Part shown: piece by piece, positions 33,152 to 57,442 of the stretch
Position numbering within the stretch: the first letter of the stretch is position 1
Layout: each line of letters opens with the position of its first letter
Origin: Ianthella basta
Lineage: Eukaryota; Porifera; Demospongiae; Verongiida; Ianthellidae
DNA length: 64,000 nucleotides
Reading direction: 5' to 3'
Assembly: GCA_964019415.1 (NCBI GenBank)
Contig: OZ025878.1
Coordinates: 4,778,512 to 4,842,511, forward strand
Translations under genes and position numbers: made by a program
Notes under the pieces: model-generated
Database searches by the model: none
Told to the model about the DNA's origin: nothing
What the model saw: the letters and a program-made list of their open reading frames with translations, nothing else

Positions 33152-36100
33152 TTAAACACAACTCTCCTTTGCTTTTTCTTCAGTGGCTGGAACCATTTCA
33201 AACTCTTTGGTGATATTGGGATCTTCACTGTCTTTGTCCTTTTGATCATCAGCGTTTTCAGCCAATGTGATGACCTTCATCTCCAGACCTTCTTCATCAT
33301 TAATACTACCTGCATCCTCTTCCTTCTTCTGTCCTCCAACTTCAATATTGGCCTCTGATTCTGCTGCAAAGCTGCTGCCTTTTTTACTGTCAACCCAGGT
33401 CGACTTGCCAGAGCTAGTACCTCCTGAACAGGGACAGAGTGAACAGTTTTAAGTACTGTAGTTTTGGGAAAAAATACTCCACAACAAAGTCCTTGCTCTA
33501 TCCATGTGCACATCTAGCATTTCAAACATTGACTGCATACTTGTGCACATGTATATACAATCGCATCATACCAGAGTGTTTCAGTGTCATTGACTTTATG
33601 TACCCACCTGGAGCTGAACCACTTCCACTGGTCAATGTCACCTACAGCACATGTACAATGAGCAGCAATACATCAAATCACACAGCTGGCTTTGTGCTGT
33701 GCAGTGTACACTAAAATGTATAATATGTGGCTATTAACTGTATACTAGCTGTATATGATATGACAGTACATAGTACTGACTTGTGTCCAGAGCTTTGGAA
33801 GTTTGTCTTTGATCTTTCCATACACCTTCTCATGTCTCACAACATGAAACAGAAATATGAACAAACCCTGCATGCAAGACAATTGCAGAATACAGTGGTT
33901 AAAGAATAACAAGCACCTTTGGCATCAGCTTTACTTACAGTCCAAACTCAGAAATACTGCTGTAGTTAACCTCTCACCTGAAACACATTGGCAATGACAA
34001 AGAGGTAAGCAAAGACCCTCCCTTCCTCTCCCACTGCAAACAGTCCAATGATCCAGGTGAAGCCCAGTACAGGGACAAGGATGACGGTGGCCTTTAACAA
34101 GTGTCTGAGGAAATTACACAACAATACACATTTTATATGCACATTAGGAACAGTTGGTCAATACTGTACTGAAGCAAGTAAGTGCAATAAATATACATCA
34201 GTCAGCTGGCTTCACAGGTGATCCACTTGAAAATTGGGAAAGACCAACCCTCGTACTAATAGTTGTAAAATGAATGCACAATTTGATCACTTTCTGCCAT
34301 GCCCATTGAGTATACAGTGGTAATGTTTCTTCTCGGGAAATCAGCTAGTGTGTGTGTGTGTGTGCGCACTTACCTGCCCACTTCCATGTACTTCTGTCTC
34401 TTCTCATCCTTGTTAGACTCCATCTTAGAAGCCATTCCACACTGAGACTTGGCCAGTGACACCAAACTGATGGTCAGCAGTACAGCATTCACCTGTGTGT
34501 GAGCACAAACATGCACAGTAGCCGTATTGAGTACACACAGAAATGTATGACATGTATAGATAAATGCAGGCCAACTGGCATTCTGATGGCACGTATTTAG
34601 CCCACAAACATGCTCTCAAGTATATCCTTAATATATTTAATCTATTCCAGTCTGTGCATTCATTCATTCGTTTGCTTGTGCGTGGCATTAAAAACGGGCA
34701 TTTGATTGGACAATGCAATGATGTAACCGCAAACATGGCTGCTCTGGCAGTGTGCAGGTGCCTCGCAGCCAACCGTCTCTTAGACACTTCGTGCTCCTCA
34801 GTTTGGTTCTCCCTGGCGCAATGTGCACTTGAAGAAGTTTACTGTTATTGTCTGGTGTGAGGGAACTGCTTTGGCTATTAGTACATGGATATATTTGTTT
34901 CAGGTACTTTAGCTTCAGCACTAGCTCCGGGCTGCTGAAAGCCCTTCCTCTATGTAAGTAAGCTATCTCATCTAAGCTATTGAGCAGAATACTTGCTTGG
35001 CTTCGGCACCGCCTTATTGGCTAAGGAAATATATGACCATGAAATTCTTTTAACATGGTGTAGGTGTAGCTAGCTATATGTATATGTGCATGCAAGTGTA
35101 TGACAGTGGCCAACATCAGCGAAAGAAGATCAGCACTATACCTGTCACTCAGCTGCAATCACCCAAATGGTGATGGATGGCCTGTGTTGTCCACTGGGAG
35201 ACGCGATGCTGAGCGAGCTTGTTCGTATAGCTAATGATTTAATTCCCAGGGATGCTTTTCATATTGATCAGCATTTTACCCATTACATGCATAATTCTAG
35301 TCATTTCAGAGACAGTCCATTACACATTATATACACATTATACTGTACAGTGCACTGTATGCATCTTTCAGATGTATATACATGCATGGACGCGTTTTAG
35401 CGAACATTTTGAATGGATCAAAGTTGAGATGCAAGATCAAAAGACATGTTGCATGTCATCAGCTATTACAATACTCACCACAATAATGGCCACCATTGGT
35501 CCAATAAATGCAAAAATAATTCCCTTTTCACTGGGCAACCAACACCTAAAGGAAAGTGCATGAACACAATTGCAAAGAATAGATATTAAACACAGTGATA
35601 AACCTGTTTCTTTATTACCAAGAACTCACGCTTTGACATCTTTGTAATGAGGATGATTCTGATCAAATGATGATCTAATCAGATAGCTGTCATGTCTCAT
35701 TCCTCCAGTTATTACCACAACAGGAATGGGGAGAACTGAGGGATTAGAGAGAAGGAATACAAACCACATTACCTGCTCATTTTGATATTGTATGAAAGAA
35801 ACCATGGTGATTCGTATAGGTCACAGACCAAAATAATAAGTGCTGAAGAATTTAACAGGAAAGACTGTACAGGCATTTTTAATGTGGACCTCAAATACAA
35901 TATATAGTGGAGGAATAGATGACTAAGAATGCATTACATACTTAATTATATTTATGTACAATGCATAACTAAACTTTCTAAGAAGACAAGTTCCTCATTG
36001 CACAGCTTCCTTACTTCTTCCATTATCTGTTTCACCTCAGGATCGGAAAGAGCAGAGCATCGCCCACCTGTGAATGGTTGTCTAATCCCTACTTTCTCAG

Positions 36101-39100
36101 TGCCTATCTCCTGGACTCCAAAACTCTGTCCAGCTAGACTCTGTGGGAGATCCTGCTGGCAACTGCATGGACTCTGAGTTTGCAAATGTTGTTTGAATCT
36201 CTAAGTCGTGTGCAAGTAATGCTGTGTTGATGGCTCTGTTCTTGGTCGCATGCTTCCTCTGCCAGTGGCTCTTTGGTGTCATGAGGTCCGTTGTTACCAG
36301 TCGATGATCACTAGGCAAAGCACACCCTGCCCATGAGCAGGCATTCTTCATGACTGATATCAGCTAATAAGGTGTGGGTCCTAGTCTTCTCCACTTTCTC
36401 TTGAGGGTGTATCAAATGCCCGAGATAGATCTAAACACAAGAAATGGAATCCCATGTCTGTCAGTAGGGCCATCGAGCAGACCAGCCTCTTGGCAAAGAT
36501 TATGTCAGCACAGCTGCGGCCCTTCATGAAACCAGGTTGGGTAGCAGGGATGTAGGAATTTGCGTAGGGACTGAATCTCTTGAGGAGGATGAGTGACAGT
36601 AGCTTCTGGATGCCATTTAATAACACCACTGGTCTCAGGTTGGACAAAGGACCTCGTGGCTTTCCTGGTTTCTGAAGAGGAATGAGTGTGCCAGCTCCGA
36701 AGTCATTCAGGTGGATTTTGCCTTCTACAGCCACATTCACAGGGATGGTGGGCTGGAGCTGCCTGGATGTTGGAGGCAATCCCGCAACTTCCGGTGACAC
36801 CCCTTGATGTGGCTTCCAGTGACAGTGCATGATGAGATGCTAGGCTATAAATATGATCAGTGCTCGCGCTAGCATATCTTCGCCCTGAAGAAGACCAGAG
36901 CATCAGGTCGAAACGTTGGCAAGGTTTTCAACCCTGTTGTGAAGCTGGTATTGGAGAACCAACCCTTTCTGATGCCTGAGCCAGCTGAGAAGCCCTCACT
37001 TCATTCTTCACAAATTGCTTGAATTGGTTGGAAATGGCAATGTAGTCAATTGGATTGTAGATAGGTATTGACTGTGTGATATCTGAGCTGTGGTGGTATC
37101 CCTGCCATGTGGTAATGTGTCTAGAGGCGTGTTTGAAGAGGCTGTTGGCAATAATGAGGTTGGAACGTTTCCCTTTTGACCAAGCACCAATACAAGAGTA
37201 GGAGTCATTATCGTGTCTCTTCCCAATCTTGGCATTCATATTCCCCATCATGCAGTAAGGTGACGGCTCTTTGAGGGATAGGTGCCACTGCGGCCTGTAT
37301 CTGTTCAAAGAAGTTCTTGCATAGTTTTGGATCAGCTGTGCACTGTGGGGTAGTGGGTCCGTAGGCAATAACGGCACTAATGGGGACATCTTGCTTACTG
37401 AATCTGAAGGTGACTACCGCCACTCTGTCACTGATGGACTTAGATGACTGTAGGTAAGGCTGTATTCTGGGGCCCACTACAAAAGGCAATCCACCCCTCA
37501 GTCTGTGCAATATAGCGACACCTTGTACCATCTTTGTAGGCCGCGGATCTGCTTCTCTTCTGGTCTCTTGCAGTGCCAGGAAGTCCAACTTGTAGCACTC
37601 AAAGTCTAGGCCCAGTTGTTCCAACTTGATGCTTGACAAAAGACTGCGGCAGTTACGAGTAGCAAATTGTAGGGATGAGCACAACGAGAGGAGAGACGTT
37701 GAGTCAAAGACTTCGGGACAAAGCCTGGCCGTGTCAGGGCCGAGATTAAAATTCCTGCCATTTAATAAGGGATTTGCTCCATAATTAATTATAGTTGGCA
37801 CATTGTAAGGGCTCAAGCAGAAATTGTCTTTCCTGAACAGCACTCAATTGAGCTAATGTGATGGTGCCTTATCACTAATAGGCAATGCTTCATGAATTAC
37901 CACCAACATTGATAGATGAGGAATCATGCAGTTCATTTAATGTGTGCTGTCTTGATAACTGTAGATCCTGAGCATTATTTCATTATTGAGTGACTGGTTC
38001 ACACCCAAGGGTGAGCGGAACAAGAACATACAGGCTGGCTTAGCATACTATAATGGCTTATTGTTTTCATAAAGTTAAGTAGACCATTGCTGATTTGTGA
38101 AACCCTTGAATGGTTTGTTGCCATGCATGTAGCGGATTAGAAGGAATGCACAAGAACTCAGAAGGATTATTTTGTAGTATAAAACGTATATAAACACATC
38201 ATACATAAAGATGACACTACTTACCCCATCCCAGTGCCAGATAGAGGTAGATCCACTTTCTCTCGTTGGCTCCAAACACTTTCACCAGAAGGATGTAAAT
38301 GAGGACAGCTTCACAGAGTGTCCAGGTGAAGGTAGCCAGGAAGAAGTAATGCAGCAAGGCTGTCATAAATTTGCAGGCATACTGTGAAAGGAAGGATGTG
38401 TTTGAAAATTGATAATGAAGGATTTTTTCAACCAAACGAAAGCCCTTGATCAGTTCAAATTGTTATCCCTTTCATGGCTTGATGTGTCACTTGAATTTTT
38501 GTTTAAAAGCATTTGTTATCAATGATATCTCTGAGTGACTGATGTTACAGTCCTTAACTTAATGTCCATGCACTTAATTCACTTTAAGCGCAACTGCTTC
38601 ATTTTAGAGCCAAAAACTGGTATGATGGAGATAAGCATTTGTCAAGTATACAGTTGTCATCATATTTTGCACATATAATTATTATAGTTGTTAAAATATT
38701 TGGCTTAGTCTGATGTCAGCCTTGGCTAGTCACACTCTCTAACAACAATACTTGTACCTAGCCACCCAGAGTCAGCTAATGCACTGTATGATCTTTGAAT
38801 TAGATTTGTGCAGAATCACTTCATGGTAGCCTGTAATTTAGCTTTCATCTTGGCTGATTATAAATTATACGAACTTAACACAATTTAGCTATTCCCAAAT
38901 TGCCTTTCATGGTTCATGATGAATTTCACTAATCTATAGATAAATAGCCCTAATTGAGCATGCCTGTCACTTACAATGTTGGCTGTGGCTGTCTGTATTC
39001 CAGTGAGGAACAGGAACAGTCCCAAGGAAAGGGCAATGCACAGGTTGAGGTGGATAAAGTTATGGAGCTTTTGAATTAACTCCTTTCTGCAGCAGTAGAA

Positions 39101-42100
39101 GGAATACAAATTGAGACTTCTACAAAACTAACCAAACTACAGCATTTACTTCACCTCAGTGACAAGAAGAATATGATAGAGGCAAGCAAGCAGAGTAAAG
39201 AAATGCTGCAACCAATGTATGTGATGTAGTCCAAGGCAGGCTGCAAGAAGAGATAGAGAATGGTGGGGTGACTAAACATGGCGTCTGCATAAAGAGGGAT
39301 ACACCTATTCAGTTCTAATACAATTGAGAACCAGTTACTCACTGGATCTCCCACAGTTGGCACGATGCTGACCAAAACTACAAAACTGGTCAGATGTGAT
39401 GCATTGCAGCCAACATGAGTGTCATTGATGACTTTAGTCTCCACCCCTCTGTAAGACCACCCTCCAGTCTGGTTGATCCCTCCAGTGAAGTTAAAGAAGG
39501 CACAACGGAACTGCTTCACTCTTCCTGATAAGACTGTGACATTCTGTGCTCTCTCCTTTAGAAAGTGAAAAAGGGTATTTTTAAAAAGGTTTCTGGAAGC
39601 CATAGTCTAAAGTGCAATAGGTCTAGAATTAACCATGAATAACTTTCAATCCATATACTTTGCATGTAATGATATCTACTGTACAAGTGCATGCAGATAA
39701 ACCATATAATAGTAACAAGCAATACGAGGTAATTGCATGCATTCCTTACATACATTAATAGGGAACATCACTTCCACTGTCTCATTGGTGTCTACCTCGC
39801 CGCCATCATAGCCAGGAATCTGACTTGAGAGCACACAACTAGCAGGAAGGGTATCCTCCACCTCACCCTCCCTGCATGAATACAGGCAAGACATGTTATG
39901 TGATTTAAACAGATCTTATAAAGTAAGGGTTGCCAGCCATGCACAATGTCTTACAGTTCTTTGTCTTCTTCAACCACATTTCTGGGCAGATAGTTCTCTA
40001 TGTTGTTCATCACCACATTCACCACCTCAATAGTGTTATTTTCTGGAATATCAGTTATCTTAAATGATACCCACATTGCTCAAAGGTTACTATACCACTT
40101 ACCAGAAGGCATTTCTATTCCTCTTGAAGCCAACAGGAAAGCTGGAGGCAGCTGAATCCGAGGAAGGCAGTCTGGCTTTCTGCAGGAGGGCAGATTGACA
40201 CCAGGTCCTGGGAATACTACAGTCTGAACATTGTTGATTGAGAACAGCTGTCCATTCATTACTGAGTGTATAGGTAAGAAGGAGAAAGTTCCCTTACAAT
40301 AATAATTATTCAATTCAGTGGTACAAAATTGCAATGGGCAATATCTTAAATGCTGTCAGGACCACACGTACCTATATTTGGTCTTGAAATGGTAAAGGTA
40401 TCCATGTCCTTGGACAATGTACTTGCAAGCACATTAGTGACTCTTTCTGTGCTCTGAAGGATGCTGGTAGCTGTGGGCACTGCTTTGCCATCTTCTGGGT
40501 CAGCTGAGGTACTCTTCTACATGTGTACAATGTGGAGCCCACTGTTAAGTACACCTACTTCTATCTTAATAAACTACAACTATTTCTTTTCCAAAATAAA
40601 TATCAGTGGTATACCTAATATCACTGGTATACCTAATGTCCAAATGTTCAATTATTTATTCTAAGTATGTCCTAACTAGCACACACAGTAAGATGCATTA
40701 TCTATGCTCACCTGTGCAGTAGCTTCAAATGCTGGTGCATTACGTTCATCAAGTACATTGCTCAAGATTTCAGCAACCACCTACAATAGGCCAGAACGTC
40801 AAAGCACTCAATACAACCACACAGTGAATTGTGTAGTATGTGTGCTCACTTCTTGTGTTTCATTCGATTCCTCACTAAACAAACCATTGTTCTCACCCAG
40901 GCTGCAGTCAGGGAGACGTTATTGTGAGAACATGAGGCGATCATAAATGATGTGTTTCTTGCATGCATACTTGGCACCAAACAAAAAGCTTACTCTGCTA
41001 CGACTTTCACAAATTTGGCAACTGTCTTCAAATCTTGCGGTGCGATTGGTGTGTCATCCTCAACTGATGGTTGCAAAGCTGCACTTAAATCCTGGGATAC
41101 ATTCTGAATCACCTCTCTTTTGTCTTCACTAAGTGTACTGTTAGATCCTTCCAAAGTATCAATGAACTGTTCAGTCTACAGACAGAGCCATGCATTCCAT
41201 TCATCTCTTGAACAACAAAGTGTTCTATACACTCTTGTTAACGTTAATTGTTCTATACATATTTCTTATGTGTTAAGATATTGATGCGCAATCTGTCTTA
41301 CTTTCATTCTGACTGCCATGACAGCCACAGATTCACATTCTGAGGCATCAACAGAATCCCACACACCACCAGCCAGACATCTCCTGTGGGCCAGGCTCGT
41401 CCCAGGTGTGTCCCCCTCTCTTTGACAAGCAACAGACTGAGTGGAGTCTGGAGCAGTAGCAGGCCACTGGATCCTCCACACAATGTCCTCCTCATTAGGA
41501 CAATTACTAATGACAACTGGCAGAAGATGACAAAGGCATGAAATTTATGTATCTGATTATGCAATTGCGTCACCTACATACCTTCATCAGCCATAATAGA
41601 GATAGTTGCAGTGTTAGGTGAGCCCTTGATGACACCTATGGTTGCAGCTACAGCTGGGATCTCCAGATTGAGAGTGAACATCTCAGCAAGTTCAGCAATG
41701 TTGTCGTCAATGATGGTCACATTGAAGCTGATCACATTCACTCCAGCTGGGAAGATCACAGTGAAACGATCACCCTCATAGTCAGAGCCACCTAAGGATG
41801 CAAATGGGAAAGGGTAAGTAGTCTAATGGAGGCAACTGGTGAGGAAAGAAATATCTGCCACCACCATGTCTCAAACAGAGGACATGTGCTTAAACACGAA
41901 GTTTCAGCCATATGGTCGCACTCGCATACAGCCCTAGTGATCTGGTATGCTCATACTCTGATCATGTGCCAGTCTAGCATGATTAGAGTGCCTACCCACA
42001 AATGCATATCTGTGGCTAGACCCACGTGTAGCAGTTCCATCCAGTGCGACCACAGTGAGATTGAAGGGAAAGTCAGGATGGTCTTCAAGTGCTTCCAAGG

Positions 42101-45100
42101 TGATGACAGCACTGCTGTCCATTTCTTCTCTCACAAGGTAGTTGGATTGGCTGAACCGTACTGGAATAAGGGCTGAAATGCAAAACATAGTTGTCAATGG
42201 GATCTCATTACCAGAGTAGAAATTCATGAGTTCATTTTCAGAGGTGTGCATACCCAAGATGTAAACCACAGCTTACGAGTAGTGTCAGTGATGGTGACAA
42301 AGGCAACTTCTGGAGATCCAACAACCACAGCTTCTGGTATAACAGGGAGACTGAGACTGAGGGTGGCCTTGAAGTATTCATCATCTTCCACAAAGCTGTC
42401 ACTTAGAGTAGACATAGGGATTTTAACCTTCATTGTCTTAGCTGGGATCGACATGCCAAAGAAGCCACCTGTGTAGTCATCAGAATCTGGGCGGAACAGA
42501 GAGGATGCCTTTTGATGTCTGGCATTCAGAAATATTATTATGCATAGAGAAATGATAATGTTTCATCACTGCATGACCGTCAGATTAAAGTACAAACCTT
42601 GAGCTGAGATGTCCATGGTAGTAATAGTAACGTTGATATGCTTAGGTGATGGCTTGTCAAGTACAATCATGATGTCAGCTGGTGTGCCCTCGGGAACAGT
42701 GTAGTTTTGTGGACTGAAACTGATGGTCACCACTGAAAGGGAACAATTAAGAAGTCTACAAACAGAGCCCAAAATGAAGATGCTATGTCACACTCCACTC
42801 CATTGAAAGGGAATATTCAAGAAGTAATCAAATTGAACACAGAGTGAAAAATGCTTTGCCACACTGTATTACACTAACCCTCATCATCCAAAATGTTGAT
42901 AGTTGCAGTGTCAGGTGACCCTTTGATAACACCCATATCTGCAGATGCATCTGGGATCTCCAGATCAAGAGAGAACAACTCAGCAAGTTCAGCAATGTTG
43001 TCATCAATGATGGTCACATTGAAGCTGATCGTATTCACTCCAGCTGGGAAGGTCACTGTGAAACGTTCACCCGCATAGTCAGAGTCTCCTGTGTTGAATG
43101 TGTATAGGGAAGTATGCAAAGGAATTGGATTGAGAAAGAGTTTGTAGACTCTGATCAAAGTACAGAAAGCCTGAGAGAGTGCAAGTGCTCACGAGTAGCA
43201 GTTCCATCCTGTGTGAGCACAGTAACAGGTATGGCAAAGTCAGGATGGTCTAAGAGTACCTCCAAGGTGATAACAGCATTGCTGTCCTCTCCTTCCTTTA
43301 CAGAGTAATCTGGTGGATTGAACCACACTGGAATCATGGCTGCACAGAACAAAAGGTACACATGTGGTCAGCATTGCGTAAAGCAAGGGAATGCAATAAC
43401 GTCACGGAGCATTTGTGCTGAATTCTGACAACTACGTATGTGTAAATATCCTATAGAAATTAAACATACGAGTATCATCAACGATGGTGACAAAGACCAC
43501 ATCTGGAGAGCCAACAACTACAACTTCTTGTGCATCAGGGAGGTTGAGGGTGGCTTTGAAGTACTCGTTATTTTCCACGAAATTGTCTCTTAGAGTAGTC
43601 ACAGACAGTGCCACCATCATTGTCCCAGCTGGGATGGACACATTAAAGGAGCCACCTGTGTAGTCATTGGGATCTGTGCAGAACAGAAAGGATACCTCTT
43701 GAAGTCTGGCACTCTGAAGTTAATTATTGTGCATAACTTAATTAAGGATGCATGGTAATGGCCAGTTTATCAGATTGCACAAAGGTACCTTGAGCTGTGA
43801 TGTCCATGGTAGTGACAGTAAGGATGATGTCCTTGAGTGATGGTTTGTTCAGTACAATCATGATGTCAGCTGGTGTGCCCTCAGGAGCAGTGTAGTTCTG
43901 AGGACTGAAACTGATGGTCACCACTGAAATGGAATGTTTTCAAAGTGTGTATAGCGAACAGTGAACAAAGAACAGAGTGAAGATGCTACACGCCGTGTAC
44001 TGCACTAACCTTCTGTGATGTTGACAGTTGCAGTGTCAGGTGATCCCTTGATGATCCCCATAGCTGCAGATGCAGCTGGGATCTCCAGATCAAGAGTGAA
44101 CAACTCAGCAAGTTCAGCAATGTTGTCATCAATGATGTTCACATTGAAGCTGATCACATTCACTCCAGCTGGGAAGGTCACTGAGAAACGTGCACCCTCA
44201 TAGTCAGAGCCACCTGAGTTGAATGTGTGCAGTGATATGGTTGAGGAAGAGTGAGAAGACAATGGCATGTGTCAGGTGCACATTTCATTGCAGTTTTCAT
44301 ATTTGGAAGAAACAGTTCTAACACATTCTAGATCTGTTTTTATAGCATTGCCTGACACAGTGCAGGTACTCACCGGTAGCAGATCCATCTTGTGTGAGCA
44401 CAGTAACAGTGAAGGCAAAGTCAGAATGGCTACCAAGTGCTTCCAAGGTGATGGCAGCATTGCTATCATCTCCTTCCTTAACAAAGTAAACTGATGGATT
44501 AAACCGCACTGGGATCAGGGCTGTGTAGAACAATTATAAGGAATACAATACTTGCTTTAAAACAATCAAAAGATTTTAGGAGCATACAGTTGTCCTAAAT
44601 TTTGATAGGCACATGCAGCCAAACTTCACGTTCACAGAATGGACTGATATTAGTTATTAAGCAGAATGTATGCATAATGCAACACACATACGTGTAGCAT
44701 CAGTGATGGTGACAAAGGTCATTTCTGGAGATCCAATAATCACAGCTTGTGGTGTACCAGGGAGACTGAGGGTGGCCTTGAAGTGCTCATCAACTTCCAC
44801 AAAGTTGTCCTTTAGAGTACTCACATTAAGAGTCGCCACCATTGCACCAATTGGGATGAATACAATAAAGGACCCACCAGAATAGTCAGTAGGAGCTGAA
44901 AAGTGGGTGAAAGCACAGAATTAGATAAAGATTTGCTGTGAATATGACACTATAAGGCATTCTGATCACAATGTGTTTGCTATCAGGATTATTTATGGAA
45001 GCTAACATCCACAGGTGTGCAGGGCATTCAATGCCATGTCTTGGAACACTTAGCTACTTACAGTACAATGAAGAATCACATAATAAGTTATGATATATAA

Positions 45101-48100
45101 CAGTACAGTATGTAGCTAACAGAATTGGATCATCTTGGATCATCCTCTACAATGGCCTATTGCAAGCAATGGCTCCATTAAATTAACTAGCTGAATGCCC
45201 GCCCTTCGGGTGGGTTCCCAGCATATCGTTTGAAATTTGAGCGTTTAACCAATCAAAACTGTCCATTTAATTGAGAGCATACCGTAGACTTGCTCTGTAA
45301 AACTCCGTACATACAGAATTTACTTATGTTAATCTATTTTGTCTAATTAAAAGGAGTTCAGTGGCGAAGGCGCCAACCACCTTAGGTTACCCCTTGTATT
45401 ACTGTGATGTGCTCTTCTAAGTTTGGGGAAGATAGGTAGAAAATTGAAGGAGGAGTTTCTGGACAATGAAACACGATCTTTTACTATCTCTTAGATATGG
45501 CGGCAACCGTAAAAGTGGCAAAAACTCGGCCGGAACGACTTTAAACCAAATTTCGGCTTGGCGAGGTTACCCACACTACGCCTCTTCGTAATCCTACTGC
45601 GTTTCATGACGATCCGTCCAGAACTGAAAAAGTATATCCTGAACAACGAAAGTGTGCGTTACGTTTATTATAATCCCGTGTCTATTGGCCCGGCAGCCAG
45701 CTCAGCAAAATTATATAAAATCAACCCTAACCCTAATACTAAATACTTTATACAGGATATGATATCCCAACCTACAGTTTTGTTTTACACTATTTTGCTG
45801 AGCTGGCTGCCGGACCAATAGCCACTTCGTTATTATAAAGCAGGAGCAAACAGCAGATATGCTGTCCTGACACCCATGGCTGTGTACTTGTCAACTGCAT
45901 CATCTAGATGCAATTATATATTCAGTTAACAAACCACTACCAAACAATAGCATAAATAGTGCAATGCTGAACTCAAACCTGTAGCTACTGCATCGATCCC
46001 ATGCACATGCATCGTTCAGTAAGAATACGGCCTACCAACAACTGTTACAACCAGGATACTACTCTGTCACATATAAAGACGTTAACTCACATTGAGCTGT
46101 AATGTCCATGGTAATAACAGTAATTGTGATGCCCTTAGACGGCTTGTTCAAGACAATCATCAGCTCAGCTGGAGTACCCTCAGGAACAGTGTAGTTCTGA
46201 GGACTGAACCTCACTGTGACATCTACATGTAGCAGGAGAGTAAGTTCATGTTACTACTCTTTACATAGGTGGAATTGGATGTACTAAAGAATTAGTGCTG
46301 TGATTACTGATAATGAATAACATTGTATGTAAGAAATGGACATAAAGGACTGCAAATAGAAATTCAATTGAATTCAGTGAAATATGCACCCTGACTAATC
46401 CACGAATGATGATATGTACATAACAGCATATGACACAACTGTGTGCAATATGCGAATTACACAGTCAAATGGTTCAGTAAACTTTACAGCCAACTCGGTA
46501 AGTACCCAAAAGCTGTTGCTGTGATACCCTATGTAGAGAGTCACTGCTGGAGTAGGTTATGGCGGGGCAAGGCTTCCCTGAATCCTCTCTTTTGCATTGA
46601 GTACCAAGTTCACAGTGGAAGGTTCACACCTCTGTACGGTCCATAGATTCTTGTTGTCTCAGAAGCAACCCTGTAAAGTGGTACCTGCTAGCAGTTCCTT
46701 GCATATACTTTGCTGTTTTGCAATGGCTCCTGTATCTCTGACAGCCAGTTGTTACTCACTGCCACAGCTAGTGTGTGATAAATTGCTGCGATTTTGTGCA
46801 TGCCAATTAGCTGTGATCCTCATGTGCATGGGAATGCATGGTCACCTACATCGTATCCACTGGTTAGCAAATTAATAACTACATTAGGACTCACTGTCAT
46901 CATTAATTATGGCCACATTGACAGTGTCTTGCAGACCAATCCTAAGTCGGATCACATCTGATGTCTCCACAATGCGTGCCCGAAAGTACTCCAGTCCTTC
47001 CTTAATAGTGTCAACAAAGATATTAAAGGTTACAGGTAAAGAGTCAGCAAAGGGTGCTGGATTATCTGTATCAGTGAAAACAGTTTGAGGAAACTCCACT
47101 CTGTAGCGCCCTGCACTAGAGTAGTCTTCAGGGTCTGCAGAATGGCATGAATAGATTACTAAAGTATGATAAGGCAAACGTATTTCAGAGTTCAATGTGA
47201 ATAAATGAACCCTTTGTATGTATTAACTACTGTGTATGTTCACAGCTCACCTGTTGCTGTTCCATCACTGACTTCAATGACAGCATACAGAGGAATGAAA
47301 AACTGTCCAGTGATGCGTAGGGAGACACTGACTTGGCCTGCACTTTCAGTAACACTGTAACTTGACTCTTTGAAGTTCACCTCCACAACTAATAAAGGAA
47401 AAGGAGTATGTGTTTAAGTCACTGTTGCGAATACAGATTTAACTTAGCTTCACAAGTTTCACTCACAGTCATTATCACTAATAAGAATGTAGGCAGTGGA
47501 AGGGGTTCCTCTTCTAGCATTCCAGTTGTTCGCAATTTCTGGGCCAAACTCAAATGTTGCTATCAGGAGCTCATCAAACTCCAGCACACTATCATCAATG
47601 ATGGTAAAGCTCTCAAATGCTGACTTGTTGGTTGGTGTGAAGATAAAGGCTTTGATTGCACTCTCCACATCAGTGCGACCAATCTCTGCACAAGTAAAAG
47701 CAATCTACCTTACTGCGGGTCATTCATGCATCAATTCACAACACCTCACGTGTCACTTGAGCCTTGCCAAAAACTTTTTCTTCGAATGAAACCTGCTCAA
47801 TGGGGGATCTAATGATAGCATCTATAAAAAGTATACATTTGTACAGTAGAAGGTGAACTGAAAAGACTAAACATGTTTCTCAGAAGCCGCATAATGTAGC
47901 ATCATAAATTTATATGGGACTCTCATTGACAAATACCTGGAAAGATGTCTGGTCCAAGCACTTCCAGAGATGAACGGGTGCCTGGGTCACTATCAAGGAT
48001 TCTTCTGGGGTGAACTGAAATTGCAACTTGGGGTGCTGTAAAGTTAGAATCTATAACAAGCTGAACAGTTGCTAGTTGAGCTTCTTGGAACTGATAGAAA

Positions 48101-51100
48101 TCCTGAGCCCAACGCACAATCAGCTCTGAATGAATACAGCAATAGAAATCAGAGTCTATCCAAACATGGTCATTAAAGAAGCCCTAACACATGCATGTGT
48201 TCACCATCATCATCATGAATTTCTATGGTGACTTGACTTGGAAAAATAGTCTGGACTGAATGCACAATAGGCTTTTGAAGTGTACAGATAAAGGACTCCC
48301 TTGGCTCTACTATATCATCATTAATGATTGGTATCACCACTTGGTCAGGTGAGTAGCTTCTGGTAGATCCAAATTCTCTGAAGTGAAGCTTTGTTCCAAC
48401 AGTGAAGTTGAAATCTCTGCCACGATAGGCTGCACACATAAAATATATTGGTAGCAAGATATAGTACGGTAACTGTGACAATTCCTGCAAACAGCATGCT
48501 AGCATACCTGGTTCTACATCAGTGGCTATAGACTCTGAACACTCAACACCAAATGCTATCTCATTGGCATAAATCCCAAATGCTTCACCACGCAGTCTCA
48601 CTACATCTCCCTCAGTCACTGATATGGCTCGTGATATTGTAAAATTGACCTGTACAACTACAAGAGATATTGCATGAGATGTGTGCAAATATCATTTGTT
48701 ATAATTCTGTATGCATTTTTTACAGGATAAGCTGCTTGGCTTACTGTCATCATCTTCAATGCTTATATCCACAAAGGTATTATTCACACCAGCTTGAGGT
48801 ACAAAGAACTGTGCTGCTTGTCCAATGGGGCGGACTGCACTGATTCGGAGGCGAAAGAACTCCCTTCCCTCAAATATTACATCGTCAGCAATGTTGATCA
48901 CATGTTCAATTGATTTGGCTTGTTTGGAAAGGAAAGTTACTGTAAAATTCCTGGATGCAAAATCTTGAAGGTTGACAATATAGTCAGTCCCTGCAAGTGT
49001 GTCAGCAATTGCAAGGTATTACAGAACAGTCAGTGTGACAGATCTAGAGCAGTAGAATACAAGCCATCTAGCTGTAAGGATCTTAGTAAGTAATATAACT
49101 GCAAGCGACAGATGGAAACATTTTCATCTGAGATCACATGATCTTTAACAAATCTTATGGCAGACTAACTGCTTGGATGTGTTTTATTGTGCAAGGGGTG
49201 GGAGAATGGTATGCCTACTATTGTAGTTTAGTGATACCAAGGTGAGCATGGATGTGTATAATGATATCTATATTTAGGTATGTCCATATGTTTTATGTAG
49301 GTATTGCAGGACAGTGTTTTGGCTGAGCTGCTGAAGAGTGAGGGAAGTGCAGCGATTGACTGGTTGATGGAGTTATTGCAGGAGATATGGAGGACCAGGC
49401 AAGTGCCACTTGGTGGAAAGATATGCAACCCTTTTGTCGCTCCATGAAAGGAAGGCCAGAATGACTTGTGGCAAATACCATGGAGTGGCACTGCTCAGTG
49501 TACTCGGCAAGCAAGGTAATGGATCTGATCCTCCTTCAGAGACTGCAAGCCATTAATTGTTGAGCCCAAACTATTGGAAGTCCAGTGTTGCATTAGTAAG
49601 GCTGTGGTACTGTTGATCAGGTCTGGGTAGCCTGATAGCTTGTGGAGAGAGCCACAGAATACCACATCCCACTGTGCCTCTCTTTCATGGACCTCACCAA
49701 GACACATGACTCTGTCAACCGGCAGGCCCTGATTGCAATCTTGAGGGAGTACAAAGAGCCCAGCTACTGATAGACTTTATTCAAGCTGGAAGTGCGTCTT
49801 TAAGTCAGGCAGGGCTGTGTTTGGTCACTGTTGCTCTTCAACTGCTTCATGGACAGGATCCTGAGGGAAGCCACATCTATGCTAGGAGGAAGTCTGCTCA
49901 TTGACTACACCATTGGCAGAGAATTCCTTCTGATCTATAGGGACAGAACTGCTCTTACGTATTACCTGCATACAGGCTGTGTTGGATGCAAACGACTTGG
50001 CACTGGTTGCTGAAACCAGGAGGGAACTGCAACACATGTTAGAAGTCTTGGACAGAGCCTGCACCTGGTGGGGCATGTGCATCAGTATCCGCAAGACCAA
50101 AATTCTACAAGTTGGACCTGGTGAACAACAACCTGACATTGAGCAGCCTAACACCTTACAAAGTCAAACCCTGGAAGAACTGCAGTCACTCCCCCATCTG
50201 GGAAGTGAGGTGGATAAATCTGACAATGTGGAAACACAGTGAGGCTTGAGAAGGCAAGTAGAGTTTATCAAATGTAGTAAAGAAAGCTGTTCCAGAGTAG
50301 AAATGCTAGAGTAACCACTAAGATGCATGCTTTCAACCTTAGTAATGTCAGTTCTATTGTACGAAGCAGAGACCTAAACAGTGACTCAGTGATTGATTTG
50401 GAAGCTGAAACATTCCAAATGAGACGCTTTACGGATATCTTGGTGGTAACCTATTGGGATCCGGGCATGCTCCGAAACACAGTGATCCTTGAGAGAAGCA
50501 AAGAACGTCATGTGGAAGACCAATTAAAGTACAGGCACATACAGTGGAGCTGAAAAATATCAGTTGATCAAGGATCATCTTAGATGGCATGCACGCTGCC
50601 ATTCACCAACCTAACCTGCCCTCGCAGCAGTAGCCCAGATCTCTCCTAACATCCTCAAGGGGTAACAAGAGGTGGAGGAGGAGTATGGATGTGTATCATG
50701 ACACAAACAGTTAGGCATTGCTATAGTTAAGATATTGCATACAGTCTAATAAGATTGAAATACCATGATACAGTACAAACAAAGCAGTACAATGGGCACA
50801 CTATACATCCATAATGAAAGAGTCAATTTGAAGGTTCTATTATAGTTTCCAACTCTGGATACCTGTACCTATCACTGCCCCTATATACGCTTTGCAGATG
50901 AACTAAGTAAACCAGTACTTGGACTGTTATCAGTTTCAGCGAGAAGCACAACATTCATTTTCTTAAATTCTGACACCAGTGTATTATTTGGAAAATTTTT
51001 GAGTGGGGTTAGATTATATTCCAAGATTTAGAGATAGGGCAATACAAGAAGTAAGGGGGGTTACACTATGTTTACAAAATTAATGACTTACCAAATTTTT

Positions 51101-54100
51101 AAGGAGAGGTGGGGGGGGGGGGGGGGGGGGGGGGCAAGAATATAGCAAGGCCCCCCTAAATGCACCCCTTGACAACGTCTGTACACAATCATGAGCAATT
51201 ACATAGTATACCCATGATGCAATTGCATTCTCAACATTGGTATCAATAATATTGATATATAATATCGACAAATTGTTCAGCTCCACCTACCTATTGCAGC
51301 CTGCAAACGGGGATCACCAGCTGACAAGTCTTCTGCGGTTATGTCCACTTCAATTCTTCCATTGAAAGGTGGGACAAAGGACCTAGTCAGGATAGGAGCT
51401 GACAAACGAACCACAAGTTGTCCACCTTCACTGGTGATAGGGTTACTGATAGAAAAGACTGGTCCAAACAATACTGCATATTATGAAAGAAAATGACAAT
51501 AGACTGTTTACTAACTTTCGGTGGCCATGGAAAGATTGCAACATAACCTGGTAGTGCATACAGCACTGACACTGTTGAGAACAATGGTATAATTGTCATC
51601 TCTAATAATTGCAAAGAAAATGAAAATATACACTTGACACACAAATTTATTATCCAAGCTATGCCTGTATACTAAATTTTGTCCAAGAGCAATGTTGCAC
51701 TGTTTTTGACGGGTTTGTTCACCATTCTGTCTTTGCACCACTTGCAGTAAGTTAAACACGGCTGGCTTCTCGTTTGCCTATATTCGATAGAACAGCTTAT
51801 GATGATGTACTTGTACATAGTTGGCAGGAGTCGAGCAATGCAATGTTTGATATTTATAGCGAGAAGTGGTTCATTTCTCATTCAGGTGAAAGGAGGTACC
51901 AAATTAAGAGCCCTATCTTACAGTATTTGGAAACTTTGGATTGCCTAACTCAACTCCACAAAGTTGGCATGTTTAAGGGAACTGAGAATCTCTTGTTCAT
52001 TCTGACAGAGGAGGCCTATACTTTGATTGCATGTAGTAACAAGTACTTTCACAGTGGAGCATTACCTTGGTTGCTATATGCAAGAATGTTACACCATATG
52101 TAGTCCTATACTCTTTAGAATGTAAGTATTCCACGGCTAATCATTGTTTTGGCACTTTTGCAGAATGAGGAGATCATACACATTTTCTGTGCTTTCTAGT
52201 TTCTGCATGTTTTGGGGTACATTTGGCACCCCTACAAATTAAAATGAGGCAATTGACTAACTTCTGCAGCTGGATTGCATGCATGTGGAGCTATGGCAGT
52301 TGCAGGTATTGTTAGGACATTATTTCTGGCTGAGACGTCTTCAATGTTTTGCCTACTGGCTTTGAAAAACACTGTGCTTTGCATGTCCTCCTGTTCAGAT
52401 GGCATCTGTGCTGTGCTGCGTTATGACTGCATATATCACACAAGCAAGATATGCCACAGCAGGATTGTCTTGCATAGACATAGCTATGGCTGTGAATGTA
52501 GTAGCTCAGCTTACAATAATTTCTCTTCAGCGATGTGCATGTACGTATGTGTACCGAGCACACTCGTGTATTGACAGGAAAAACACTGCAAATAATAAAG
52601 TGATGGTGGCTTAGAGCTACAAGTACAAGTTTGAAGACATAGCTGTGTCATGGGAAGTTCCAATTTCCGATTCTTGCAAACTAATAGCCATCAACAGTTG
52701 TGTATCAACATGGTATCTTGATATGTACATCTTCCAGGCTATCAGCAATGCTGCATTCCCAACTAAGTATCTGAACTATTTAACATTCATAGCATTCGCA
52801 GGGACCTGCTAGCAATTAAGAGGTTTAGGGGCACAAGCACCCTGTGCTTTAATTTAGCTTATATTACTTGTTTAAACTTGAAACACTTGTTACAGTTAGA
52901 GAGTGCTATCTCAGATTATATCTTCTAACAAAGTTTAAAAGATGAGCTGAGTAACATGATTATGATTGACTTACCACCATTATCTTCAACGGTGATGTCC
53001 AGAAATGTCTTATTCACACCAGATTGAGGTACAAAGAACTGTGCTGCTTGGCCAATGAAGCGGACTGCACTGATTCGGAGGCGAAAGTACTCCCTTCCTT
53101 CAAATATCCTATCATCAGCAATTTGGATCACATGTTTAGTTGAATGAGCTTGCTTGGAGAGGAATGTTACTGTAAAGTTCCTGGATGCAAAATCTTGAAG
53201 GTTGACAATATAGTCAGACCCTGGAAGTGTGTGGGCAATATGTAAAGTGTTTGAGAACAATCACAGCGACCAGATTGGGACTGAACAATAAAATGTAAAC
53301 AGCTAGCTGAAATAACATAGCAAGACTTAGTATAGAAAGTGCAATAGAGAGTCATTAAAATGTCAATGAGATCACATGTGGACCTACATTAGCTGTGCAC
53401 AATGTAATTGCAACAAATGAGAAGTATGTTTTTTCCTATATAGATACAGGATAATTGCAGTGTCCGGAGTCAGTTGTGGAAGAAATGGCATGAGTGTAAT
53501 CACAGTACGCATCCCAATGAAAGGACTGTGCTCTATAGACCAAATGGGTGAATGTGTTCAATCGATGAAACTGGGCTATTACTGTCCGAGGAACTTGAAA
53601 TGGCATGGGGCTGCAGAGGAAGGTGGCACTGCTAGGATTTGAACACAGGACTATCTAGTCATTGCCCACCAGTAACCATGTGCACACCTCTCTCCACCCA
53701 ATACATTGAATATTCAAATGTGATTGTTGCTAGATACAGGTCAATTGCCATGCATGTTCAGAATCAGTTTGTGGAAGGAATCATGAGCTGCAGTCAGTGT
53801 ATTCACAGCTGGTGTCCTGATGTTACATTAGACACACTGTAACCTATCAGTGTTTGGACCACAGTCCCTCCATTGATTGGGATACTGCTGTGATTGCATT
53901 CACTATTCCTTTGACAAACTAGATGCTTCACTATTATTTTACAAAAGCTGATGGAAGGCTTACCCAGTGTAGCCCACAAATGGGGATCATTAGCAGGCAA
54001 ATCTTCTGCGGTTATGTCCACTTCAATTCTTCCAGTGAAAGTAGGGGCAGAGGACTGAATCAGGATAGGAGCTGACAAACGAACCACAAGTTGTTCACCT

Positions 54101-57100
54101 TCCCTGGTGGTAGGGTTACTGGCTGAGAACACTGGTCTAAATGACACTGCATATAAATAAAGAGAAATGGCAGCATATTGTGCACAAGTCAGCGTACACC
54201 CATACTGTACCTGACCCTTTCCCAAATAAAGTCTGTACTAAACAACTATTAACAAGTCTTGTAGCAAATTAGGCAGCTACACACAACAAGTGCACTTGTG
54301 TTTAATAACAAACACACTGACATAATGTAAAATATAGCTGACTCACTGTTATCATCATTAATGGTCACATTGACAGTGTCTCGCTGACCAATCCTCACTC
54401 GGATGAAGTCAGATGTCTCCACAATGCGTGCCTGAAAGTACTCCAGACCTTCTGTAGCAGTGTCATCTGTAATATTAATAGTTATGGGTAAAGAGTCAGC
54501 AAAGGGAGCAGGTGTATCTGTATCAGTGAATGCAGTTTGACAAAAGTCCACTCTGTAGCGTCCTGCACTTGAGTAGTCTTCAGGGTCTGTAAAATGGTAT
54601 GAGATATGAATAAATACACTCAGTGGCAGACTCAATCCAACACAAGGTGGCTAGCTATGTACAAATCACTTCTAAGTGCATGGTTCACCTGTTGCTGTTC
54701 CATCACTGACTTCAATGACAGCATACAGAGGAATGAAGAACTGTCCAGTGATGCGTAGGGAGACACTGACTTGGCCTGCACTTTCAGTAACACTGTAACA
54801 TGACTCTTTGAAGTTCACCTCCACAACTGAAAAAATAGCAAAAGATATATCAATTGACCACTAAGTATGCATGTACTGTAGGTTTGGATATAGCTAAAGC
54901 TTACTCACAGTCATTATCTACGATCTACCTACCTATTATCTACCTCCACAACTAAAGAAGGAACAGAATATTAAAGTCACTATAGTGAATTCATGCAGGT
55001 GGGACTTATAGCTAAGGTTTACTCACAGTCATTATCCCAAATAGAGATGTAGGTGGTGGTGGGGTTTCCTTTTCTAACATTCCAGTTGTTCTCGATTTCT
55101 GGGCCAAAATCAAATGTTGCCATCAGGAGCTCATTAAACTCCAGCACACTATCATCAGTGATGTTAAAGCTTTCAGATGAAATATTGTTGGCTGGTGTGA
55201 AGATAAAGTCATTGCTTGCACTCTCCACATCAGTGCGACCAGACACTGTACAAGAAAAGGCAAGCTACGTCACTGTGGGTTCATTCATGTATCAATTCAC
55301 AGCATCTTACGTGTCACTTGGGCCTTGCCAAAAGATCTGTATGATCTGAATGATGCTTGCTCAATGGGAAAAACACTGACCACACCTATGAACTGCACAT
55401 GCATTAGCAATAACAGTTGGATAGGTCACATTGATTAAGTGTCTCAAAGATTTCACAAAATGCAGCATTATTCAGTTTCAACTCTCCATTACCTGGAAAC
55501 AATTGGGGTCCACACTCTTGAAGAGATTCACGGTGGTATGGGTCACTATCAGGAATTCGACTAGGACACCCAGGAATGGCAACTTGGGCCACTTCAAACT
55601 TAGACTCTATGACAAGCTCTACAGTTGCTAGCTGATTTTCTCTGAACTCATAGAAATCTGCAGCCCAGCGTACAATCAGCTCTGAAGTAAACAGAAACAG
55701 AAACAATAGTTTAGGCGAATGTATTCAACCAGGCAAAAAACACATGTATACGCTCACCATCATCATCAAGAATTTCAATTGCGACTTGACTCGGAAAAAT
55801 AGCCTGTATTGAATCCACAATACCTCCTTGAAGAGTACAGATAAAGGACTTCCTTGGTTCAGCAATATCATCATCTAAGATTGGTATCACCACTTCATCA
55901 CTTGAGAGGGTTCGTGCAGTAAAGGTATCAGTGAAGTGAAGTTTGGTTCCAACAGTGAAATTGAAATCTCTGCCAGGAAAGGCTGCACACAAAGTGGTAA
56001 CAAGACAAAGTGTGGTAGCTCACACAACTCCTACTAGCAGCATGCTAGCATCAGTGACTGATATGGTGTCCATACCTGGTTCTACATCAGTGGCAATAGT
56101 CTCTGAACACTCCACACCAATTGGTATCTCATTGGCAAAAATCCCAAATACTTCACCACGCAGTCTTACCAAGCTCCCTCAGTCACTGATATGGTTACTG
56201 ATGTTGTGAAGTTGACTCGTACAACTACAAGAAGAATTTCTTGAGATGTAAGTACCACATCATTTGGATAATATGCAATTCTATAATTTGCACAAGATGA
56301 GCTGCCTGACTTACTGTCATCATCTTCAATGCTTATGTCCACAAATGTATTTTCAAAACCATCTTGAGGTACATAGAAGTCTGCTGCTTGTCCAGTGGGT
56401 CGGATTGCACTGAGCTGGAAGCGAAAGTACTCCCTTCCTTCAAAGATATGATCATCAGCAATTCTGATCACATATTCAGTTGAATTGGCTTGTTTGGACA
56501 GGAATGTTACTGTAAATTTTGTGGAATTAGAACATTGCCAGTTGACAACATAGTCAGAACCTGCAAGTGTGTGGGCAGAGTATGTAGTTGAGTGCAGGCA
56601 CTGTGACAGAGCAATAGAATACAAGGCAGCTGAAACCAGCATCACTAAGTGAAGAAATGAGGGCTAATTAATTGCTATCTGAAGTTATACCTAGCAATCA
56701 TTACTGCAACACTATTAAACAGTAGGTGAGACGATACTTACCTAGTGTGGCCCGCAATCGGTAATCACCAGCTGGCAGGTCTTCTGCAGTGATGTCCACT
56801 TCAATTCTTCCAGTGAAAGCAGGAGCAAAGGACCTAGTCAGGATAGGGGCTGACAATTGAACCACGAGTTGTTCACCTTCCCTGACTGTTTGCGTGCTAA
56901 TGGAAAAGATAGGGCCAACTGCAAATTTGAAGGGGAGGGGAGAAATGGAGGGAAGAAAACATTGAGAGGGGAGAGGAGGATATAGAGAGGAAGAGAGAAA
57001 TGGAGGGAGAAGAAGGGATCAGAGAGGGAGGTAGGGAGAAGAGGAAAAGGAGAGGTGGAAGAGAGAGAGTTAGCTGATGGTTGCAGAGATGGAGTTGTAC

Positions 57101-57442
57101 ATTTTATAACATGTCACCTGATTATTTAACATGCACAAATGCAGCTAGCTGTATGTCTCTGCTCTTTGTACAGTACAAGGGACAAAATACTTTATTGTTC
57201 TATAATTATACTGTACATTCAACTCTGACTCACTAGCTCAAACTAAGGTGTGAAAGTAGTATATTGATAATAACCTGACATAGATATGCAGCACATATTT
57301 TGTATATAGCATGTGAGATACAGTACACGGGGAAGGTTTAAATGCAGATGGCTCACCGCCCCCACAACGTACTGGATATTTGCGCTGTGCCCTCAGTGAC
57401 TAGTGTTGCTAGCAGCACCAAGGCTGTCGACAAGGCCTTCAT
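33152..57442 (-). CDS. Giant adhesion GPCR with about 15 Calx-beta-like domains, HRM, GAIN/GPS and 7TM (ADGRV1-like architecture)
   Basis: About 52 exons join in frame on the minus strand (57442-57373 leader; last exon 33423-33152 ending in TAA), predicting about 2,810 residues if one missing base in exon 4 is allowed for. Order: signal peptide (MKALSTALVLLATL), about 15 Calx-beta-like domains (41.6-56.9 kb), HRM domain (41516-41302), GAIN with GPS cleavage site HLTSF (41175-39343), TM1-TM7 (39240-33781) and a Ser/Gly plus acidic tail. Calx-beta arrays next to a cleavable GAIN/7TM core are the architecture of ADGRV1/VLGR1, but an HRM domain is not part of that receptor and the array is shorter, so orthology is not claimed. 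It should sit in the plasma membrane with a long calcium-binding adhesive arm. A LINE lies inside one 7TM intron and another in the Calx-beta region. All Calx-beta exons are phase 1-1. The 1-bp deletion in exon 4 may be an error, a real allele, or tolerated by skipping. Confidence 0.85.
36381..37843 (-). mobile_element. LINE fragment with APE endonuclease and partial RT, inside a GPCR intron
   Basis: From 37843 down: RNCRSL, then LDFLALQETRR (APE endonuclease motif around 37580), NAKIGKR (near 37225) and YNPIDYIAISN (near 37060). A second frame (36830-36381) reads RT: TLIPLQKPGKPRGPLSNLRP, GFMKGRSCADIIFAKRL and CLDLSRAFDT. The YADD palm box and the remainder are missing. EN and RT frames are interrupted and the linker is shortened, so the copy is dead. 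It is in the same orientation as the host gene, in the intron between the TM3/4 exon and the TM4-end exon. Confidence 0.85.
38382..38974. other. Intron between the TM2 and TM3 exons of the giant GPCR
   Basis: AT-rich non-coding sequence. No element recognised. Confidence 0.6.
39343..41175 (-). other. GAIN domain and GPS exons of the giant GPCR
   Basis: Exons 41175-40994 (helical part, DLKTVAKFVKVVAE), 40901-40850, 40780-40712 (VVAEILSNVLDERNAPAFE), 40516-40372, 40261-40103 (beta part, VMNGQLFSINNVQTVVFP), 40078-39955, 39871-39754 and 39606-39343. The last encodes the GPS: CAFFNF, GGWSYRGVETK and GCNASHLTSFVVLVS. Autoproteolysis in this family cuts between Leu and Thr of HLT, which is present. 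Two of the four usual GPS cysteines are absent (Val after the WSYRG motif, Ala two residues before His). Junctions keep frame. Confidence 0.85.
41302..41516 (-). other. HRM (hormone receptor motif) exon of the giant GPCR
   Basis: One exon encodes CPNEEDIVWRIQWPATAPDS, two further Cys, and CLAGGVWDSVDASECES, the Cys/Trp/Pro pattern of HRM domains that sit before GAIN in many adhesion GPCRs. It is preserved in the pseudogene at 21.5-21.7 kb. Function in this family is mostly structural; ligand binding is not implied. Confidence 0.8.
44896..46090. other. Enlarged GPCR intron holding a small inverted-repeat element
   Basis: The equivalent introns of blocks 2 and 3 are about 110 bp, this one about 1.2 kb. 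It contains the sequence CCCGCCCTTCGGGTGGG near 45200 and the inverted-repeat element at 45682-45821. It appears to have grown by insertion. Confidence 0.6.
45682..45821. repeat. 140-bp inverted-repeat element with an internal CCCTAA pair
   Basis: Ends CTATTGGCCCGGCAGCCAGC and, reverse complemented, CTATTGGTCCGGCAGCCAGC match at 19 of 20 positions and similarity continues through TCAGCAAAA. The middle contains AACCCTAACCCTAATAC, two telomere-like units. MITE-like by structure. Confidence 0.75.
49290..50560 (+). mobile_element. LINE RT fragment inserted antisense in a GPCR intron
   Basis: Plus-strand frames, with shifts between them, read AAIDWLMELLQEIWRTRQVP (near 49350), CGKYHGVALLSVLGK (near 49470), EYHIPLCLSFMDLTKTHDSV (near 49670; RT motif A), NDLALVAETRRELQHML (near 49990; the box normally reading YADDLALLAET), KTKILQVG (near 50100), LGSEVDKSDNVE (near 50210) and a terminal QLKYRHIQWS (near 50540). 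The order is that of a LINE RT and C-terminal region. EN and the 3' end are absent, and the catalytic box reads ANDL. It is inactive. Confidence 0.85.
51111..51134 (+). repeat. Uninterrupted run of 24 G
   Basis: Poly-G tract in the same expanded intron as the LINE. It generates a spurious poly-proline frame on the minus strand. It can form G-quadruplexes and is a likely site of sequencing length error. Confidence 0.9.
51474..52974. other. Enlarged GPCR intron, unassigned
   Basis: About 1.5 kb between the partial and the second Calx-beta block. Plus-strand frames at 51774-52103 and 52275-52574 have no recognisable domain or exon structure. By comparison with the nine-exon blocks, seven exons that would be expected here are absent, so the stretch marks the deletion or recombination point. 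Confidence 0.5.
52975..54146 (-). other. Two-exon partial copy of the Calx-beta block
   Basis: Exons 54146-53964 (FRPVFSASNPTTREGEQLVV) and 53220-52975 (SDYIVNLQDFASRNFTVTF) together encode one complete Calx-beta-like domain equivalent to the first domain of the nine-exon blocks. The other seven exons are absent. Both exons remain open and phase 1-1, so the array frame is kept. Confidence 0.85.
54347..56918 (-). other. First copy of the nine-exon Calx-beta block, with a 1-bp deletion in its third exon
   Basis: Exons 56918-56742 (GPIFSISTQTVREGEQLVV), 56560-56315, 56224-56076, 55982-55758 (GRDFNFTVGTKLHFTD), 55681-55493 (IVRWAADFYEFRENQLATV), 55385-55311, 55245-55027 (DDSVLEFNELLMATFDFG), 54826-54689 (VEVNFKESCYSVTESAGQVS) and 54586-54347 (DPEDYSSAGRYRVDF). 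Lengths equal those of the second copy except small in-frame changes and the third exon, which has 149 nt against 150 and loses the frame after VTISVTEG. Since that exon is phase 1-1, skipping it would restore the frame. Confidence 0.9.
54895..54960 (-). repeat. Mini-fusion of an exon 3' end and the next exon's 5' end inside an intron
   Basis: The plus strand reads CTTACTCACAGTCATTATC, identical to the donor-side end of the exon at 55027, and 30-40 bases later CTACCTCCACAACTAAAG, like the acceptor side of the exon at 54826. Both are out of their normal place, suggesting a leftover of unequal recombination or slippage. Confidence 0.6.
56927..57075 (+). repeat. 150-bp polypurine tract
   Basis: Almost pure A/G sequence (GGAGGGA, GAGAGGGGA and GAAGAG words) in the first intron of the giant GPCR, directly before the first Calx-beta exon on the gene's strand, where it reads as a polypyrimidine tract. 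It can form triplex DNA and may help acceptor choice. Confidence 0.85.
57373..57442 (-). other. Leader exon of the giant GPCR
   Basis: Encodes MKALSTALVLLATLVTEG followed by TAQIS: a short positive start, a hydrophobic core and small residues before the likely cleavage site. It is 70 nt long and ends at phase 1 with GTACGT, exactly the layout of the leader exons at 28290-28359 and 17356-17425, with which it shares the LLATL core and a similar exon end. Confidence 0.8.

Follow-up and report, generated by a model that had tools for sequence, protein, structure and literature searches.

A predicted adhesion GPCR of the sponge Ianthella basta joins a long Calx-beta array to HRM, GAIN/GPS and seven-transmembrane domains

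The analysed window, a stretch of 64,000 nucleotides from the genome of the sponge Ianthella basta (contig OZ025878.1, here C11; C11:4778512-4842511), contains on its minus strand a predicted gene of 50 exons and 2695 aa (gene A, 33152..57442) that encodes a signal peptide, a Calx-beta array, an HRM domain, a GAIN/GPS region, a 7TM domain and a cytoplasmic tail, in this order. It has two features of class B2, namely a GAIN/GPS region that precedes the 7TM and a 7tm_2 domain related to those of adhesion receptors. Judged from its sequence, gene A is probably a single adhesion GPCR from a sponge subfamily that has expanded in tandem, and its Calx array appears to have been joined to a non-ADGRV chassis independently. 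It extends the adhesion GPCR family and is not a new kind of system.

The coding region opens with an ATG at 57442 and closes with a stop codon finishing at 33152. In the final model of 2695 residues, all 49 introns are of the GT-AG type and there are no internal stops. A dynamic-programming gene finder was applied to 58500-32500 (minus strand), to the plus strand and to dinucleotide shuffles, with a codon table trained first on 20 homologous stretches from the window, predominantly Calx exons but also HRM, GPS and TM3, and subsequently on its own predictions. On the minus strand it returned a single 44-exon gene within 58404-33152 (score 395), while neither the plus strand nor any of the 20 dinucleotide shuffles gave a gene; this control is tilted towards gene A because the codon table was trained on gene A stretches and the finder's own predictions. 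The 7TM and GAIN exons missed by the finder were placed by hand via splice sites common to gene A and its upstream paralogue B. Paralogue comparison also replaced the bounds of a GAIN exon (40207-40103, now 40261-40103) and those of the signal-peptide exon (57442-57357, then 57442-57376, now 57442-57373). The latter exon (57373..57442, minus) was recognised by eye from a charged start and a hydrophobic core, and a 101-base stretch around it has 14 matching places with 75-100% identity, all on C11 and its own site included. An earlier note on this DNA, which gave no strand, had described a single gene of 52 exons; the single multi-exon gene stands, with 50 exons in our model, and our guess is that a damaged half-Calx exon and another minor exon may have been included.

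Pfam scores refer to an earlier version of gene A (2675 residues, E up to 1) or to pieces, as opposed to the final 2695 residues. Genome-wide profile searches covered 209 Mb in 96 contigs and scored 150 candidates each of 969, 244, 208 and 427. The same genome includes a mitochondrial contig (C96), whose cox1 has a Pfam match spanning nine TGA codons and reads as a single frame of 520 residues under table 4, and which carries an atp9-type gene at C96:4910-5098 (PF00137 match), a gene whose presence in mitochondrial DNA is a mark of sponges.

About 15 Calx-beta-like domains had been noticed in the sequence, and pairing of the half-domain exons indeed gives 15 units, one of them without its first half; in the 2675-residue version, Pfam assigns 375.6 bits to Calx-beta with 10 stretches passing. 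Nine units, including the incomplete one, form a distal block with an internal duplication (46895..56918, minus). The proximal tandem (41582..46222, minus) consists of 12 exons arranged as three 4-exon units, equivalent to six domains, with ~1.2 kb between the last two 4-exon units. All 30 exons of the Calx part are entered in phase 1. This part amounts to about 1870 residues, so that the arm is longer than the several hundred residues originally proposed. The damaged half-Calx exon (56075..56224, minus; 3' end approximate) is homologous to 48657-48508; by-eye comparison shows a net one-base change and loss of frame near 56224, and the exon is excluded from the gene model.

Among solved structures, two adjacent Calx units come closest to the calcium-binding domains CBD1/CBD2 of the Na/Ca exchanger NCX (3rb5, E 1.8e-11). 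CBD1 and CBD2 are intracellular calcium sensors, whereas the repeats of gene A are predicted to be extracellular. In 11 of the 15 units the second half has at least two acidic residues among its final four positions, in 13 units a DY or DF lies near its start, and 10 of the 15 show a loose DDxxxExxExF pattern; the roles of these residues are those known from NCX. The acidic end is absent from four units, and calcium binding is likely confined to part of the array. The suggested calcium-stiffened arm is plausible, though the acidic ends back it for part of the array only.

The HRM exon (41302..41516, minus) encodes four cysteines. In the profile search that had been proposed as a check, Calx-beta, GAIN and 7tm_2 pass, whereas HRM exceeds its cut-off of 26.2 bits when the exon is scanned alone (27.0 bits) but not in the full-length protein (19.1 bits). 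The GAIN exons follow (39343..41175, minus), the GPS exon being the last of them (39555-39343). Scanned as a piece, this region yields 46.0 bits for GAIN (cut-off 26.5) and 32.6 bits for GPS (cut-off 22.5), the GPS reaching 29.3 bits in the full-length scan of the 2675-residue version. The HL↓T cleavage triad (39388..39396, minus) is followed by TSFVVLVSI, a putative tethered agonist of the TxFxxL type, and HLTSF(V/A)VLV is kept in all nine aligned members of the subfamily, the divergent gene on C23 described below not being counted as a member. In the available text of PMC13197933, TxFxxLM is given as the tethered-agonist core, which TSFVVLVSI fits save for the last position. All nine members have two of the usual four GPS cysteines, so that one of the two GAIN-B disulfides would be absent and self-cleavage at HL↓T is not assured from the sequence.

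In-frame joining of Calx-beta, HRM, GPS with HLT and 7TM in one gene, as first read from the sequence, holds in the minus-strand model. Alternatively, the prediction might have fused two neighbours, one encoding a Calx-beta protein for secretion and the other a receptor with HRM, GAIN and 7TM. It is true that a new domain type starts at the HRM exon, that some Calx-rich stretches of C11 have no GPS nearby among the matches listed, and that forcing a split before the HRM lowers the gene-finder score only from 395.5 to 378.4 (382.7 for a split between GPS and TM1), a cost of 17 log units to which the finder's fixed penalty per gene contributes. Since the difference is slight and owes something to this penalty, the real evidence for one gene comes from the relatives. 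Exons matching Calx, HRM, GAIN/GPS and 7TM follow each other in this order and on one strand in all six Calx-bearing C11 relatives that we read (B, P2 to P5 and a copy on the plus strand), and this speaks against a merger of two genes. In addition, the last Calx exon leads into the HRM exon in phase 1 in four genes (A, B, P2 and P3), and the repeated signal-peptide exon precedes the Calx array. The two-gene model, which scores lower and is disfavoured by the order kept in six relatives, was rejected, and we consider such a fusion very improbable. The in-frame joins, the phase and the order in the relatives support the reading of Calx-beta, HRM, GAIN and 7TM as parts of one predicted gene.

Paralogue B bounds gene A on the 5' side. 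It has the same architecture and domain order with its own 7TM exons, and its last exon (63717..63982, minus) ends with a stop at 63717. Between the two genes lies a fibrinogen C-terminal domain on the plus strand (60518-61018, 151.9 bits). Downstream of gene A the window contains a von Willebrand factor type D domain (25593-26243, minus, 33.9 bits) and a weak endonuclease-reverse transcriptase match (12854-13414, minus, 19.7 bits, below cut-off).

Nine relatives, picked from match lists rather than sampled, were aligned: the six with Calx, HRM, GPS and 7TM, one with SRCR and fn3 domains, one with two HRM domains, and the gene on C23. In P2 to P5 and the plus-strand copy the 7TM coverage is partial, from 118 to 268 of 280 positions; the lower value belongs to P4, whose prediction ends after the GPS and whose 7TM is supported by 118/280 aligned positions and a 7tm_2 match. 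The C23 gene (C23:1755001-1765000, minus) has Calx-beta, HRM (37.9 bits), a GPS with CECDHLT (41.7 bits) and one clear hydrophobic span. It shows no 7tm_2 among the matches listed and no aligned 7TM position, and is possibly a single-pass Calx-HRM-GPS protein.

The 7TM domain of gene A (33781..39240, minus; 8 exons) scores 181.1 bits against 7tm_2 on its own and 174.6 bits within the whole protein, and is followed by the cytoplasmic tail exons (33152..33641, minus). Its best PDB matches are ADGRL3, ADGRL2 and ADGRD1 (E about 1e-38 to 1e-36), with 36-39% identity to ADGRL2/L3 and ADGRD1 compared to 23% to ADGRV1, which is absent among the best 60 of 71 PDB matches. The best reading of these sequences is that the chassis is nearer to the latrophilins and ADGRD1 than to ADGRV. 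Latrophilins (ADGRL) and ADGRD1 are thus the nearest solved 7TM relatives, although their heads differ from the Calx-beta head of gene A.

ADGRV1 (VLGR1/GPR98) resembles gene A in its long Calx-beta array, GAIN/GPS and 7TM. Gene A differs in that its 7TM belongs to another clade, an HRM is present and EPTP was not found, being absent from the 11 Pfam families that the full-length scan listed (E up to 1). At E up to 0.01 the genome has a single EPTP match, on contig C20, which also bears Calx-beta matches; on a longer piece this EPTP reaches 36.4 bits. The 7TM of the C20 gene has ADGRV1 as its one PDB match up to E = 1 (1.1e-20), while its 7tm_2 Pfam score remains below the cut-off (17.3 versus 20.6, in a version with two superfluous residues); the identity of this gene therefore rests on the ADGRV1 match and EPTP. 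This sponge ADGRV relative (C20:777461-812545; Calx-beta and EPTP) has no HRM on its contig among the matches listed, and a GPS-like stretch that, by eye, seemingly has no HL↓T.

The 7TM phylogeny that had been suggested in the earlier note comprised ten sequences, with most human families left out and the C23 relative excluded (67 aligned positions). ADGRV1 (9fte) and the C20 gene form a clade with 100/100 support on long branches, and gene A falls outside it; gene A and its relatives adjoin ADGRD1 with modest support (75-83). The identity between ADGRV1 and C20 is 25%, little above the 23% between ADGRV1 and gene A, and given these values and the long branches the clade may in part reflect long-branch attraction and is by itself no proof. 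For this sampling, the tree speaks against ADGRV membership of gene A and leaves its true sister unnamed.

These data bear on the two origins initially proposed for the architecture. An independent origin is supported by a 7TM that stands apart from ADGRV1 in a genome whose C20 gene groups with ADGRV1, while the other origin, a form older than the domain loss in ADGRV1, finds no support. The idea that gene A is a true ADGRV member retaining an HRM lost in other animals would fit the Calx-beta array, GAIN and 7TM that both have in common and the age of ADGRV, which has choanoflagellate relatives according to the available text of PMC12716839. Against it stand the closer similarity to ADGRL2/L3 and ADGRD1, the position outside the clade, the EPTP result and the presence of an ADGRV-type 7TM with Calx and EPTP in the separate C20 gene. 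Gene A was rejected as an ADGRV family member on its 7TM (tree and PDB matches), and we regard this origin as scarcely credible.

The preferred reading, a Calx array on a non-ADGRV chassis, gains detail from relatives with other heads. At C11:4640001-4654200, two SRCR domains (94.3 and 55.1 bits) and an fn3 domain (44.5 bits) precede an HRM (32.1 bits), GAIN, GPS and 7TM; from their order and strand we infer that these exons form one gene. Its identity to gene A is 90% for both 7TM and GPS, 83% for HRM and 64% for GAIN, and neither SRCR nor fn3 is among the Pfam families listed for gene A. In P5, one predicted gene comprises an IgGFc-binding domain (49.1 bits) and, after it, the Calx array. 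An N-terminal exon of similar kind precedes the plus-strand copy, whose prediction, however, breaks between this exon and the remainder, so that the link is unproven. Because C11 relatives bear SRCR and fn3, or IgGFc-binding and Calx, on nearly the same chassis, the head is probably the changeable part and the one that gives specificity, and we infer from the sequences that heads were exchanged on one HRM-GAIN-7TM chassis. The two-HRM copy on C10 has 79% identity to gene A over 257 aligned 7TM residues; on C10, C18 and C41, several genes among the matches listed have two HRM domains 1.4-2.2 kb apart before the GPS.

How the exchange proceeded is less clear. SRCR and Calx exons are of phase 1-1, and a simple same-phase swap at the HRM boundary was expected. 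The SRCR-fn3 gene, however, has its fn3 donor in phase 2, as is the one AG that could serve as acceptor ahead of the HRM, a weak site (score -1.9); with phase 1 between Calx and HRM, this contradicts such a swap. The SRCR-fn3 phases were derived by hand and partly rechecked. In the subfamily tree, the SRCR-fn3 gene groups with A to P5 to the exclusion of the Calx copy on the plus strand (93/88), while P5 joins the other Calx genes with a support of 67 and the extracellular and 7TM trees disagree. Calx was either gained once and then lost or gained twice within the subfamily, a choice that these trees resolve poorly. More speculatively, and with less confidence than in the reading above, the C11 cluster could be a diversifying recognition system that combines a conserved force-gated chassis with exchangeable heads of variable length, the Calx form being convergent with ADGRV. 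If this were true, tandem head swaps could let individual sponges differ in cell-cell, self or microbe recognition. Another cluster, C12:4781447-5038004, has about 30 7tm_2 among the matches listed, in mostly unbroken frames of 650-890 residues, and apparently consists of intronless class B receptors.

Gene A could be a copy in decay, given the frame-broken exon and an intronic retroelement. The latter is a reverse-transcriptase fragment, LINE-like by eye (36381..36839, minus; RVT_1 33.9 bits), which lies outside the protein in the TM3-TM4 intron; the nearby open reading frames 36928-37413 and 37208-37843 have no Pfam match. At about 2.5 kb, this intron of gene A is longer than its 0.8-kb counterpart in B, so that the insertion probably happened after the duplication. 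A functionless, decaying duplicate of paralogue B would account for the broken exon near 56224 and the retroelement fragment, and also for Calx exons being fewer in A than in predicted B. The frame, however, is otherwise open over 2695 residues with GT-AG at all introns, and dN/dS between A and B is 0.17 for the 7TM and 0.20 for the HRM, although a pairwise value may mirror constraint on B alone. The remaining values are 0.45 (distal Calx), 0.41 (proximal Calx), 0.37 (GAIN-GPS) and 0.41 (tail); the whole comparison covers 48 of the 50 exons, the signal-peptide and TM7 exons having no partner, and pairs each Calx exon with the most similar B exon, orthology being unproven. Taken together, we consider a functionless gene A unlikely.

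Among known systems, gene A has HRM and 7tm_2 in common with the secretin family (class B1), from which it differs by GAIN and GPS between HRM and 7TM and by the long adhesive array. Sponge adhesion GPCRs with HRM, and with SRCR repeats or fn3, are a further related group: for Amphimedon, Krishnan et al (2014, PMC4302439) report 40 Adhesion receptors, of which at least eight have an HRM and two contain SRCR repeats. Compared by domain description, they have HRM-GPS-7TM in common with gene A, in which the Calx-beta array takes the place of SRCR/fn3. The word "calx" does not occur in the main text of that paper. The chassis itself is common to gene A and the SRCR-fn3 relative, as compared within this one genome.

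Further sources concern the components. The HRM-GAIN-7TM module predates animals and choanoflagellates possess ADGRV (eLife 2025, PMC12716839), and for Capsaspora, Calx-beta is noted as a VLGR1 signature (PMC3251606). For H. panicea, the legend of a receptor figure names IgGFc-binding, Calx-beta, GAIN, HormR, GPS and 7TM among the domains (PMC8242945), and similar receptors may already have been drawn in this figure. Elsewhere, Calx-beta genes are mentioned apart from GPCRs (PMC6208332, PMC11229196). Within the available literature text, figures and supplements aside, we found no description of Calx-beta and HRM in one receptor.

In the model we propose, the Calx-beta array would have been joined to the HRM-GAIN-7TM chassis independently of ADGRV, by way of duplication and unequal crossing-over together with the shuffling of exons that are mostly of phase 1-1. 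The Calx arm, stiffened by calcium over some or all of its length, would bind a partner on another cell, the matrix or a microbe. A pull or a binding event at the HRM/GAIN end would then free the tethered agonist, which in turn would switch on the 7TM domain.

A long Calx-beta arm on a cleavable receptor would thus have more than one origin, as suggested by the presence of both forms in one genome. The subfamily offers a natural experiment in which nearly the same membrane unit carries different heads. It thereby becomes possible to test which of the two, head or chassis, determines what an adhesion GPCR senses, and what role the HRM plays beneath a long arm.
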